Source: an uncultured Bacteroidota bacterium (GTDB lineage: Bacteria > Bacteroidota > Rhodothermia > Rhodothermales > Salinibacteraceae). Taken from it: a stretch of 48,686 bases of DNA. Location: assembly GCA_913055845.1 (NCBI GenBank), contig CAJXKO010000011.1:1-48686 (forward strand), read 5' to 3'. Position 1 is the stretch's first letter, and every line of letters starts with the position of its first letter. Below are positions 27,254 to 31,645 of the stretch, piece by piece. The notes below the pieces were generated by a model that saw nothing but the letters and a program-made list of their open reading frames with translations, ran no database searches and was not told the DNA's origin. The translations under genes were made by a program, and so were the position numbers.

Positions 27254-28447
27254 ATGATTGACGCGATCAAGGCCGCTGCCGATGACGTGTATCCGGAGGT
27301 CGTCGCGCTGCGTCGTGCATTGCACCGGCATCCGGAGCTGTCGGGCGAGGAGGACGAGACGGCGCGGCGCGTGGCGGATTGGCTGGAGGACCTCGGGCTC
27401 GACGTGCACACCGGCGTCTACGGCACCGGCGTGGTGGCCACGCTGGAGGGCGGCGAGCCGGGGCCGACCCTGCTCCTGCGGGCGGACATGGATGCGTTGC
27501 CGATTCGGGAAGACACCGGGCTCGATTTTGCATCGGCGAACGAGGGGGTGATGCACGCCTGCGGGCACGACCTCCACACGGCGTCGCTCCTGGGAACGGC
27601 CACGATTTTGGCGGCGCACCGCGAGCAGGTGCACGGACAGCTCCGGTTGTGCTTCCAGCCGCACGAGGAGCGCATTCCGGGCGGGGCGAAATTCATGATC
27701 GAGCACGGTGTGCTCGACGCGGCGAACGGCATGCCGGCGCCGGAAGCAGCCTTTGGCCAGCACGTGAAACCGGACCTTCCGCCCGGCACTCTTGGGGTCC
27801 GGCCCGGTGGGTTTATGGCGTCGACCGACGAGGTGTACGTGACGGTGCAGGGCACGGGCGGCCACGCCGCAGACCCGCACCAAGCAGTGGATCCGGTCTA
27901 CGTCGCCAGCGAGATCGTGGGGGCTCTGCAATCGATTGTCAGCCGTCGGTGTCCACCGGGCGTGCCGTCGGTACTCACCATTGGGCGCCTCGTGGCGGAC
28001 GGGGCGACCAACGTGATCCCCGACACTGCCCGCCTGGAGGGCACCTTTCGGGCTATGGACGAGGAGTGGCGCTTTCGGGCGCACGGTCTTATTCGCCAAC
28101 TCGTGCGCCGCACCGCAGAAGCGCACGGGGCCACCGCGGAGGTGGAGGTGCGCGAGGGGTATCCGGTCCTCCACAACGACGAGACGACGACGGCACTCGT
28201 CCAGAAAGCCGCCCGCGAATACGTAGGGCCGGAGCGCATGGTGGACGCAGACCGGTGGTTTGCGGGCGAGGACTTCGCGTACATCCTGCAGAAGTGCCCC
28301 GGCACCTTTTATCAGCTCGGTGTAGGAAGCGAGCACGGACTGCACACTGCCCAGTTCGATCCGGACGAGGCGGCCCTCCGCACCGGCGCGGGCTTCATGG
28401 CGTACCTAGCGTGGCGGTACGGACGTGCCCGGGCTCAGGGGGGCTGA
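27254..28447 (+). CDS. M20-family amidohydrolase (N-acyl-amino-acid/hippurate hydrolase type)
   Basis: This protein has 397 residues from the ATG at 27254 (MIDAIKAAADDVYPEVVALR). Di-metal ligands sit in HACGHDLHTA (residues 101-110), E138/E139 in FQPHEER, His170 in FGQHV, and a late His in GSEHGLHTAQFD. The dimerisation-domain segment GTGGHAADPHQAVDP carries the usual second-shell His. This is the complete M20D amidohydrolase layout, which removes acyl groups from amino acids or peptides in the cytoplasm. It is divergent from the sodium-symporter gene, which could import its substrate or the product. The substrate is not determined by the sequence. Confidence 0.94.
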   Translation: MIDAIKAAADDVYPEVVALRRALHRHPELSGEEDETARRVADWLEDLGLDVHTGVYGTGVVATLEGGEPGPTLLLRADMDALPIREDTGLDFASANEGVMHACGHDLHTASLLGTATILAAHREQVHGQLRLCFQPHEERIPGGAKFMIEHGVLDAANGMPAPEAAFGQHVKPDLPPGTLGVRPGGFMASTDEVYVTVQGTGGHAADPHQAVDPVYVASEIVGALQSIVSRRCPPGVPSVLTIGRLVADGATNVIPDTARLEGTFRAMDEEWRFRAHGLIRQLVRRTAEAHGATAEVEVREGYPVLHNDETTTALVQKAAREYVGPERMVDADRWFAGEDFAYILQKCPGTFYQLGVGSEHGLHTAQFDPDEAALRTGAGFMAYLAWRYGRARAQGG

Positions 28448-28620: not shown

Positions 28621-30135
28621 ATGGATCAGACCCTTCAACTCCCGAACCACGTCAACGTTATCGGGCCCACGACCGACTACGCCTACAAGTGGGGACTCAA
28701 CGTGGGCCTCTCCGACAAAAAAGCCCTCCGCCTGGCCCTGGCGGTCGACGAGCTCGTGACCGACGTGGTCCGGTTTGCCTTTCCGGGCGAAGAGGGAAGC
28801 TTCGAGATTACCTTTCGGGCGGACCTCTCCACGGCGGAGGTCATCATCCACGAGAAGGGGGAGCCCTTCGACCCCTCCCAGCACCCGTACGATCCGCACC
28901 GGGCCATTGAGGAGGACAACTTCGAGGGGGCAGGGTTTGCCGTGGTGCAGCACTGCGTCGACGATTTTGCGTTTCTGAATCGGGGGCGGGAGGGCAAGGA
29001 GTTTCGGCTCGTGCAGCACATTGAGTCGGAGCACATCGCGGACCTCCACCCCACGGAGCAGCCGGACCCCGACGCCGACCGCGAGGACGTGGACTACACG
29101 CTCTCGGCCGTTCAACCCAGCGACGCCGAGGACATTGCGAAGCTCATCTACCGCACGTACGGGTATACCTACGCCAAGGAGGACCTGTACTACCCGGAAC
29201 GAATCGAGCGGGCCCTGGAGCGGAACGAGAAGTTTGGGGTGGTCGTGCGCAGCGAATCAGGACGCACTGTCGGGTATTTCGCCGTGCTCCGGTCGCCGGA
29301 CTCCACCATCGGTGAGGTGGGCGAAGCGGCGGTGGACGTGAACCACCGGCGGCGCGGCCTCATGAAGCGGATGCTGCGAGCACTCATTGACCAGGCCAAC
29401 GAACAGGGGCTGAGTGGGGTGTTTGGGGAGGCGGTGACGGTGCACGACATCAGTCAGCGCGTGAACCACCACTTCGGCATGGTGTCTACCGCGCTGCTTC
29501 TAGGCCTCTTCCCGCCGGAGCGGTTTCGGTCGCTGGCCGACGACCATACCCAGCCCATCAGCATCGTCATCGACTTTCGGCCGTTGATCCCCTACGACAC
29601 GGTGACGGCCTACCTGCCCGCCCCCTACGCCGATTTGCTGCGCCAAATCTACGACGCCCTCGGGGTGGAGGCCCTGCAGAGGCCGCCCGCCTCGGCCGTC
29701 CCCCCGCGCGAGGAGCTGCCCGCCACCACCGAGATGGACGCTCGCATCCGGTATACCTACGGCCACGTTGTCTTCGTCGTGGAGACCGCCGGGCAGGACC
29801 TAACGGATCAGGTGCAGCAGGCCCTCGACGACCTGGACGACGAGGACATGTCGGTGGCGTGTGTGGACCTGCCGCTCGACGACCCTGCCACCCCCACCGC
29901 CACGGCGGTGCTGCGCGAGCACGGCTTCGTCTTCGCCGGGCTCATGCCCCGCTTCCACCGCGACCGTGACTACCTGCGGTTGCAGCGTCCACTGGTGGCG
30001 CTCGACCCCGACGCTATCACGGTATATTCGGACCTTGCCACAACTCTCAAGCGTCACATCCTAGAGGAGCTGTCATGGACCTCGAACGACACGGCGACAC
30101 CCTCACCGTCCGTCCCCGACGCGACTTCAACCTGA
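28621..30135 (+). CDS. RsbW-like ATP-binding domain fused to a GNAT acetyltransferase
   Basis: In this 504-residue fusion, residues about 1-135 are a HATPase_c domain of the anti-sigma kinase (RsbW) type, with AVDELVTDVVRFAF (N-box), EKGEPFDP (G1) and FEGAGFAVVQHCVDDF (G2). Residues about 155-310 are a GNAT domain with the acetyl-CoA loop VDVNHRRRGLMKRML (238-252). The last 190 or so residues form a further alpha/beta region. The N-box Asn is Asp48 and the G1 Asp is Glu78, so ATP hydrolysis or phosphotransfer may be lost. The gene overlaps the STAS gene by 61 nt. It may be an acetyltransferase gated by partner switching (inference). The acceptor substrate is unknown. Confidence 0.88.
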   Translation: MDQTLQLPNHVNVIGPTTDYAYKWGLNVGLSDKKALRLALAVDELVTDVVRFAFPGEEGSFEITFRADLSTAEVIIHEKGEPFDPSQHPYDPHRAIEEDNFEGAGFAVVQHCVDDFAFLNRGREGKEFRLVQHIESEHIADLHPTEQPDPDADREDVDYTLSAVQPSDAEDIAKLIYRTYGYTYAKEDLYYPERIERALERNEKFGVVVRSESGRTVGYFAVLRSPDSTIGEVGEAAVDVNHRRRGLMKRMLRALIDQANEQGLSGVFGEAVTVHDISQRVNHHFGMVSTALLLGLFPPERFRSLADDHTQPISIVIDFRPLIPYDTVTAYLPAPYADLLRQIYDALGVEALQRPPASAVPPREELPATTEMDARIRYTYGHVVFVVETAGQDLTDQVQQALDDLDDEDMSVACVDLPLDDPATPTATAVLREHGFVFAGLMPRFHRDRDYLRLQRPLVALDPDAITVYSDLATTLKRHILEELSWTSNDTATPSPSVPDATST

Positions 30136-30368
30136 TGGCGGTACGCCACCTCAAATACCACCTCGACGACGCAACCCGCGTCCGCATTGATCTCGCCCGG
30201 GCCCGTCTGGTGGACACGGAGGCCGTTATGGCCCTCCATCGCCTCCGGGCGCAGGGGGTAGAGGTGATTCTGCTGGAACCGCCCGCCATTTTCTACGAGG
30301 TACTGGAGGTGCTGGAGTTGGAATCGGCCTTCAAGGTAGAGCAGCTCGTGGAGCGGGAGCGGTCGTGA
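30075..30368 (+). CDS. STAS-domain protein (anti-sigma-antagonist-like)
   Basis: This 97-residue protein starts inside the previous gene (61-nt overlap, different frame) at MDLERHGDTLTVRPRRDF. The fold pattern is that of SpoIIAA/RsbV: strand, then VRIDLARARLVDTEAVMALHRL, then VEVILLEPPAIFYEVLEVLELE. In SpoIIAA the phosphorylated Ser lies in a D-S-S-G motif; here the aligned residues are Asp47-Thr48-Glu49-Ala50. Glu therefore replaces the phosphoserine and could mimic the phosphorylated state. The gene overlap implies translational coupling with the HATPase-GNAT protein, its probable partner. Family membership is solid; the regulated process is unknown. Confidence 0.88.
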   Translation: MDLERHGDTLTVRPRRDFNLMAVRHLKYHLDDATRVRIDLARARLVDTEAVMALHRLRAQGVEVILLEPPAIFYEVLEVLELESAFKVEQLVERERS

Positions 30369-30460: not shown

Positions 30461-31645
30461 ATGCCCACCACCTCTCCCCAAACGGATCGCACCGTTCCCG
30501 CCGACGCCCTGTTGGCGTACGTGCACGACCACGCCGACGCCTACGTCGACTTCGTGCGGCGACTGGTTCGAGCCGAATCTCCCTCTACCGCTCCGGAAAC
30601 CCAGCAGGCGGTACAGCGACTGATGGCCGAGGCGTTCGTTGATGTCGACCTATCGGTCACTCATCTGCCGGGCCGCGAGACCGGTGGGGCCCTCTACGCC
30701 CGACCTGCACATCGTCCCAAGCACGCCCCCTCACAGCTCCTGCTGGGCCACGGCGATACGGTCTGGGACCGCGGCACGCTCGATACCATGCCGGTCGAGG
30801 TGGAGGACAATGAGCTCCGTGGGCCCGGCGTGTTCGACATGAAGGCGGGTCTCGCCAACATTGTGTTTGCCCTGCGCGCCCTCCGCGCTGTCGGCCAGTC
30901 GCCGTCGGTGTGTCCACTGGTGCTCGTCACGAGCGACGAGGAGATTGGCAGCCCGGAGTCGCGTCGCCACATCGAGCGCCTCGCGGCGGTGGCCGAGCGC
31001 GTGTACGTGTTGGAGCCGGCCCTAGGGCTCGACGGCAAGATCAAGACGGCCCGGAAGGGGACTGGGGAAATGACCCTTCAGGTGCGCCCCGACGAGGCCG
31101 CGGCAGAGGGCAACGTGGTACTGGAGCTGTCGCAGCTCGTACAGCGGCTCTACGATCTCCACGCGCCGGAGCGCGGCGTGACGATCAACGTGGGGACCAT
31201 CGACGGCGACCAGGTGGACGACGAGACCGGCACCTCGTACGGCCAGCTGGTCGTCGATGTGCGCGTGCCCACCCACGAGGCGGCCGACACGGTCCGTGCG
31301 GCCGTCCAAAACCTCCAGGCCCATACACCTGGGGTGACCGTGGAGGTGCAGGGCGGAATCGAGCGGCCGCCGCTGGAGCGCACCGCCCGCAACCGTCGGC
31401 TCTGGCACATGGCCCGTGACGAGGGGACACGGATTGGGCTAGAGCTGAAGGAAGGTCGGGCGGGCGGTGCGTCCGACGGTAACTTTACGAGCCAGCACAC
31501 CGCGACGCTCGACGGTCTCGGGGCCGTGGGCGACGGAGCGCACGCCCACCACGAGCACATTCGCATCCGCGACACCCTTGATCGGTGCGCCCTGCTCGCG
31601 CTTCTGCTCCTGGCCCCGCCCCAGTTCCCGGAGAACGACCGCTGA
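30461..31645 (+). CDS. M20-family peptidase (carboxypeptidase G2-like), dimerisation His missing
   Basis: This 394-residue protein has di-metal site segments HGDTVWD (97-103), GVFDMKAG (123-130), TSDEEIGS (157-164) and LEPA (184-187), and a late GDGAHAHHEHI. These match the glutamate carboxypeptidase group. The dimerisation-domain segment should include a conserved AHAG-type His that completes the partner's active site. Here the sequence goes from RKGTGEMTLQVRPDEAAAEG directly into the helix, with no His and about ten fewer residues. Activity may be altered. It lies 92 nt after the STAS gene on the same strand and has no signal peptide, so it is cytoplasmic. Confidence 0.9.
   Translation: MPTTSPQTDRTVPADALLAYVHDHADAYVDFVRRLVRAESPSTAPETQQAVQRLMAEAFVDVDLSVTHLPGRETGGALYARPAHRPKHAPSQLLLGHGDTVWDRGTLDTMPVEVEDNELRGPGVFDMKAGLANIVFALRALRAVGQSPSVCPLVLVTSDEEIGSPESRRHIERLAAVAERVYVLEPALGLDGKIKTARKGTGEMTLQVRPDEAAAEGNVVLELSQLVQRLYDLHAPERGVTINVGTIDGDQVDDETGTSYGQLVVDVRVPTHEAADTVRAAVQNLQAHTPGVTVEVQGGIERPPLERTARNRRLWHMARDEGTRIGLELKEGRAGGASDGNFTSQHTATLDGLGAVGDGAHAHHEHIRIRDTLDRCALLALLLLAPPQFPENDR

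Follow-up and report, generated by a model that had tools for sequence, protein, structure and literature searches.

The window analysed here, a 48,686-nt stretch of contig CAJXKO010000011.1 from an uncultured Bacteroidota bacterium of the Salinibacteraceae, carries a gene encoding an acetyltransferase fused to an RsbW/SpoIIAB-type HATPase, overlapped at its 3′ end by a STAS gene. This arrangement raises the question of what such a pair controls, and whether it does so through phosphorylation of the STAS protein. A first-pass annotation made from the sequence alone had proposed that both partners lost phosphotransfer together and that they may form a complex whose target is acetylation and not a sigma factor. 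In our analysis the observation itself was partly confirmed and its interpretation partly supported.

The fusion protein and its STAS partner

Both reading frames and the overlap between them were recovered where the first-pass annotation had placed them, and the coordinates of all features are collected in Table 1. Purifying selection acts on both genes, with dN/dS values against the nearest relative (90% identity) of 0.094 for the fusion gene and 0.066 for the STAS gene. The sequence GAGGAG is located a few bases upstream of the STAS start.

Table 1. Features of the acetyltransferase-HATPase/STAS locus (coordinates refer to the window)
Feature	Position	Strand	Basis
M20 amidohydrolase (TIGR01891), widespread chromosomal gene adjoining the cassette	27254..28447	+	family match, genome search
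Fusion gene (P0001, 504 aa): RsbW-type HATPase, GNAT and second GNAT-like domain	28621..30135	+	ORF, Pfam, predicted fold, dN/dS
HATPase_c_2 domain (residues 1-135), closest in sequence to RsbW among PDB entries (4.1e-13)	28621..29025	+	Pfam, profile, predicted fold
N-box, Glu44 (conserved) to Asp48 (SpoIIAB Asn50)	28750..28764	+	profile alignment
G1 motif Glu78-x-Gly-x-Pro-Phe-Asp-Pro; Glu78 corresponds to SpoIIAB Asp81	28852..28875	+	profile alignment
GNAT domain, residues 159-297, acetyl-CoA-type loop HRRRGLM (242-248)	29095..29511	+	Pfam, predicted fold, Foldseek
Putative second, degenerate GNAT-like domain, residues ~313-457	29557..29991	+	predicted secondary structure; assignment inferred
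STAS gene (P0002, 97 aa), 61-nt overlap with the fusion gene	30075..30368	+	ORF, predicted fold, Foldseek
Asp47-Thr48-Glu49-Ala50; the SpoIIAA/RsbV phosphoserine corresponds to Thr48, with Glu49 at +1	30213..30224	+	profile alignment, predicted helix
M20-family hydrolase, probable third cassette gene	30461..31645	+	neighbour clustering, Pfam, genome search

The two domains first assigned to the fusion protein both exceed their Pfam cut-offs (HATPase_c_2, 2.5e-12; Acetyltransf_1, 1.3e-9), and Acetyltransf_9 lies barely above its own (6.7e-6). The N-terminal part belongs to the HATPase_c_2 sequence family of the RsbW/SpoIIAB kinases, and in the profile search the match to RsbW spans profile positions 3-121. 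The structure predicted from an alignment of 26 sequences has a mean pLDDT of 86.8 and a pTM of 0.85, and when this model was compared with solved structures using Foldseek, GNAT enzymes were among the best 50 matches listed. The acetyl-CoA loop of GNAT acetyltransferases has the motif R/Q-x-x-G-x-G/A. The GNAT fold is present in the fusion protein and its loop reads R-x-x-G-x-M, with a Met where Gly or Ala is usual. Beyond residue 313 the predicted secondary structure echoes a GNAT-like order and has no recognisable acetyl-CoA loop; residues ~313-457 may thus constitute a second, degenerate GNAT domain. This third domain had been overlooked in the first-pass annotation, as had the M20 hydrolase genes that flank the pair.

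The STAS partner is identified chiefly by its fold. Its Pfam STAS match is weak (0.002) and falls below the cut-off. The structure predicted from 18 sequences (pLDDT 85.7, pTM 0.76) finds SpoIIAA as its best PDB match in Foldseek (E 8e-5, TM 0.60), and the top matches, SpoIIAA, TM1442 and RsbV, have moderate TM-scores of 0.60 to 0.67. P0002 thus shares the STAS fold of SpoIIAA and RsbV by structural comparison, with a sub-threshold family match. Designed dTor repeat proteins, which also appeared among the PDB hits, were dismissed as chance repeats.

Distribution and genomic context of the pair

A full-length fusion is present in 7 of 60 genomes (the window's own and 59 relatives), and the STAS gene in the same seven; within the genus, the pair was found in the window genome and in G005 only, out of 13 genomes. 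Scanning genome contigs yielded 25 loci, including five records (L056-L060) of genomes that had been recovered before. The search of the phylum (E 1e-12) returned matches in 18 of 296 genomes, L097 and L098 being HATPases alone. The clade considered below consists of 27 fusions: seven from Rhodothermales (the window, L022 and L056-L060), twelve from Aquificota (L061-L072, assigned to Hydrogenothermaceae, Persephonella or no further than Aquificota) and eight from a second family within the same class as the window, probably Balneolales (L082-L089). Sixteen distant relatives (L073-L080, L090-L096 and L099) come from deltaproteobacterial, Sulfurospirillum and other same-phylum genomes; among these, L080 is truncated by a contig end and the match in L096 starts only at the GNAT part. 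In a tree of 40 rows, comprising the 27 fusions and 13 of the 16 distant relatives, the 27 cluster together at 100/99 support, and the Sulfurospirillum fusion is their sister on a long branch. The pair forms an old, patchily distributed cassette that recurs in another phylum. A plasmid origin was rejected, a single weak, GNAT-only match being obtained among 72,556 plasmid records.

The STAS gene lies directly 3′ of the fusion gene in all 27 clade members. Of the 18 junctions examined among these 27, 15 show an overlap of 1-61 nt and an ATG start; in one the two genes abut, in another they are 9 nt apart, and for L068 no STAS start was assigned. In the distant fusions L092, L095 and L099, the fusion gene is preceded by a STAS gene whose acceptor is Ser, and L095 and L099 also carry a separate small HATPase gene. 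The HATPase part of these three fusions has the Asn and Asp of the canonical N-box and G1 motifs, and they possibly represent a kinase-competent form of the system. Among the deltaproteobacterial relatives (L077-L080), the downstream gene resembles a response regulator by eye. Their HATPase part has decayed: the N-box residue is Tyr in L077, L078 and L079 do not align in this stretch, and L080 is cut.

An M20 hydrolase follows the pair in all 15 loci from Rhodothermales and the second family, and in nine of them a flavin-reductase-like gene is inserted between the two. When 27 genomes were searched for the downstream M20 hydrolase, two copies were found only in the four pair-bearing genomes, one copy in each adjoining the pair; the 23 genomes devoid of the pair have either a single copy at 50-54% identity (nine genomes) or none at E 1e-40 (14 genomes). 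The M20 amidohydrolase upstream of the fusion gene was rejected as a Rhodothermales cassette gene: 24 of the 27 genomes have it at 53% identity or above, with or without the pair, and G011, G030 and G036 have only matches near 40%. In Aquificota, a C-N hydrolase gene lies downstream in 3 of the 12 loci. The genes that recur beside the clade's fusions thus named are M20 hydrolases, which are the commonest, the flavin-reductase-like gene and the C-N hydrolase; the last two names derive from one Pfam-scanned member each, the other members having been grouped by BLAST clustering. Such neighbours suggest N-acyl amino acids or amines as candidate substrates.

Phosphosite, ATP site and phosphatases

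The first-pass annotation had placed Glu49 of the STAS protein at the position of the phosphorylated Ser of SpoIIAA. This register is off by one residue. Profile alignment matches D-T-E-A with D-S-S-G of SpoIIAA, D-S-T-G of RsbV and D-S-A-G of TM1442, through hits that are individually weak (E 0.0047 to 0.22) but mutually consistent, and SpoIIAA Ser58 and RsbV Ser56 both fall on Thr48, not on Glu49. RsbV is described as phosphorylated at Ser56 (PMC7340262), and since its D-S-T-G contains one Ser, right after the Asp, the phosphosite is the residue following this Asp. In the passages of PMC10120452 that deal with SypA, the phosphorylation site is Ser56; a helper role of Ser57 via a kinase Arg is expected there from the SpoIIAA-SpoIIAB structure, but the contact is absent from the model presented in that paper. 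The predicted helix 48-59 of P0002 begins at Thr48, and the protein thus has, where helix 2 starts, the phosphorylatable Ser or Thr right after an Asp that characterizes SpoIIAA and RsbV.

The same register was read in the 27 STAS partners of the clade. The acceptor is Ser in 16 and Thr in 11, and the residue before it is Asp in 24 and Asn in three. The +1 residue is Glu in 21, Asp in three and Lys in three, and is therefore always charged and acidic in 24. In ordinary STAS motifs the +1 residue is A, T, S or Q in 26 of 26 cases and never charged; this survey covered 30 loci, of which three yielded no motif and one (L157) is plainly wrong, and its search pattern favours a Ser/Thr acceptor. By this comparison the charged +1 residue is a clade trait of the STAS partners and not a phosphomimic. 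As the acceptor hydroxyl is retained, the STAS protein is no built-in phosphomimic, and a Glu adjoining a STAS acceptor should be read with this caution in mind.

On the kinase side the first-pass reading holds. Glu46...Asn50 of the SpoIIAB N-box and Asp81 of its G1 motif align with Glu44...Asp48 and Glu78 of the fusion protein, in which the canonical Asn and Asp are replaced and Glu44 is retained. The alteration characterizes the whole clade. At the N-box, 24 of 26 fusions have Asp and the other two (L071 and L088) have Asn; at G1, 25 of 27 have Glu, whereas L068 and L088 have Asp. Glu44 is conserved in all 26 fusions having that stretch. Twenty-six other HATPases, three from the window genome and 23 from relatives, all have Asn at the N-box and none has Asp; their G1 residue is Asp in 20, His in five and Tyr in one. 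The five His-bearing proteins are HATPase_c_2 members of relatives (L026, L027, L029, L031 and L037). Among the 14 distant fusions that were aligned, the N-box residue is Asn in ten, Ser in one and Tyr in one, the stretch being absent from two, so that Asp occurs in none of the 12 with a readable N-box. G1 Glu is found beyond the clade in the distant fusions L090 and L094, both with an N-box Asn. Parsimony on the fusion tree requires three changes for the N-box states and five for the G1 states. Loss of the lid Arg was rejected as a sign of lost kinase activity: SpoIIAB Arg105 aligns with Phe101, yet RsbW, which is termed the kinase of RsbV (PMC7340262), has Glu at this position.

These data bear directly on the idea that phosphotransfer was lost jointly in both partners, with Glu49 locking the STAS protein as a phosphomimic. 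The altered N-box and G1 residues and the acidic residue that adjoins the acceptor in 24 of 27 partners are what this scenario would lead one to expect. However, the register already largely refutes it, Glu49 being the +1 residue and not the acceptor; three partners have Lys at +1, and a Ser/Thr acceptor persists throughout. Moreover, L088 combines both canonical residues, N-box Asn and G1 Asp, with a D-S-E-A partner, which comes close to the counterexample of a relative with an intact N-box and a Ser or Thr at the STAS site. The proposed co-variation of Asp48 and Glu78 with Glu49 is absent, the +1 residue being charged whatever the state of the HATPase, and L088 indicates that the kinase and STAS sides do not change together. 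We consider joint loss very improbable.

Sigma factors and phosphatases were sought around the pair, and phosphatases also across its host genomes. Pfam detected neither among 12 window neighbours, and no sigma factor was recognised by eye in the recurrent neighbour clusters of 43 loci, a minority of these clusters having been family-searched. Linkage with a sigma-factor gene or a SpoIIE phosphatase gene, as is typical of SpoIIAA and RsbV, was thus not found among these window neighbours, nor did a SpoIIE match lie near the pair in the other genomes searched. SpoIIE-type phosphatase genes do occur in 12 of the 13 pair-bearing genomes outside Aquificota, including the window's own; of those listed, none is near the pair and the nearest on the same contig is ~66 kb away (G096), and the sister genome G005 gave no match. 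In the 12 pair-bearing Aquificota genomes, whose completeness is not stated, no SpoIIE-type phosphatase was found. PP2C_2 phosphatases were detected in five of these 12 genomes (one below the cut-off) and in G005; none was found in the window genome. Eleven of the 12 Aquificota genomes have HATPase_c_2 matches; the fusion ranks first in each, and the remaining matches lie in frames of 331-723 aa. The five Pfam STAS matches of the 12 genomes are all the pair's own; the model missed seven of the 12 pair STAS genes, and other STAS proteins may escape it too. Outside the window, at G000:C1:71235-73139, STAS, HATPase_c_2 and SpoIIE-phosphatase matches lie together, one of each, and the window genome therefore probably has an ordinary partner-switching set besides the fusion-STAS module.

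A proposed STAS-controlled acetyltransferase and its relation to known systems

P0001 is probably a small-molecule acetyltransferase with an RsbW/SpoIIAB-type HATPase at its N-terminus. P0002 would be made by translational coupling and would dock on this HATPase as SpoIIAA docks on SpoIIAB; docking, possibly together with a nucleotide held by the HATPase, would switch or localise the acetyltransferase, and no sigma factor would be needed. The module probably does not use the normal reversible phosphate cycle, since most members have lost the N-box Asn and the G1 Asp, and no SpoIIE match was found in the Aquificota hosts. A STAS-HATPase complex that controls acetylation, and not a sigma factor, stays the best reading in view of the altered kinase side, the pairing in 27 of 27 members, the M20 neighbours and the SpoIIE count of 0/12 in Aquificota. 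Conservation of Glu44 in 26/26 and of an acceptor Ser or Thr in 27/27 speaks against it, as both fit a working kinase. Also counting against it are the N-box Asn of L071 and L088, the SpoIIE genes of 12 pair-bearing genomes outside Aquificota, the PP2C_2 genes of some Aquificota genomes and G005, the occurrence of G1 Glu in L090 and L094, and the Met that ends the GNAT loop. That a dedicated STAS subunit on the HATPase controls the acetyltransferase without the standard phosphate cycle is, from the sequence comparisons, evenly poised between true and false. A bolder proposal is that partner switching has been rewired: a metabolite acetyltransferase with an altered, possibly non-kinase RsbW domain would be switched by its own STAS subunit, without sigma factor or phosphate cycle, within a cassette of 2-4 genes shared by Rhodothermales, the second family and Aquificota. 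We hold this proposal tentatively, at somewhat less than an even chance. If true, a switch that regulates sigma factors has been reused for direct control of an enzyme, and a clade-wide change of the ATP site could be tested against members that retain Asn and Asp, such as L088.

The HATPase could still be a kinase. In this case Asp48 would bind the metal, Glu44 would be the base, and phosphorylation of Thr48 would free the STAS protein from the acetyltransferase, as in classical partner switching with an enzyme replacing the sigma factor. The invariant Glu44 and acceptor fit this alternative, as do the Asp before the acceptor in 24 of 27 partners, the N-box Asn of L071 and L088 and the full canonical set of L088; a phosphatase could be supplied by the separate STAS/HATPase/SpoIIE set of the window genome, and SpoIIE genes are present in most pair-bearing genomes outside Aquificota. 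It is opposed by the prevalence of N-box Asp and G1 Glu and by the lack of a SpoIIE match in all 12 pair-bearing Aquificota genomes. The behaviour of EnvZ, whose Asn347 is the N-box residue, also speaks against a retained kinase. EnvZ N347D is kinase-minus/phosphatase-plus according to the title of a paper cited in PMC2688746. On balance we regard a retained kinase as unlikely, although it deserves serious consideration. It is more doubtful still that a third partner, a sigma factor or another regulator, is the target of the STAS and HATPase parts, with acetylation as the output of this contact or as a modification of that partner. The HATPase part is indeed closest in sequence to the anti-sigma factors RsbW and SpoIIAB, but no sigma factor was found in the neighbour searches described above, and the genes that recur beside the clade encode M20 hydrolases, the flavin-reductase-like protein and the C-N hydrolase.

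The preferred reading, a STAS-HATPase complex controlling acetylation, can be set against several known systems. RsbW/RsbV and SpoIIAB/SpoIIAA are encoded by neighbouring genes. The window pair resembles them in the sequence family of its HATPase and in having a STAS partner with an acceptor Ser or Thr, but its HATPase is fused to GNAT domains and has Asp at the N-box and Glu at G1, and no sigma factor or phosphatase gene was found beside the pair. Eis has a two-GNAT plan and an RRRGL-type loop. The fusion protein is related to such tandem-GNAT enzymes by its Acetyltransf_9 match and by a weak profile match to Eis2 (0.021); unlike them, it has no further C-terminal domain detectable by Pfam and carries a HATPase at the N-terminus instead.

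A search of one literature collection with set terms returned no title or abstract on a protein that joins an acetyltransferase with an anti-sigma-type HATPase; PMC9138534, for its part, concerns Rv1364c. Outputs other than a sigma factor are described for the STAS-HATPase pair SypE/SypA of Vibrio fischeri (PMC10120452) and for the pairs CapK/CapS and VapK/VapS. SypA and CapS are reported to work through phosphorylation of a STAS serine, and VapS is only predicted to do so. Unlike the fusion described here, none of these three pairs is said in these accounts to include an acetyltransferase. STAS-HATPase pairs with non-sigma outputs are therefore known, whereas no acetyltransferase version turned up in the literature searched.
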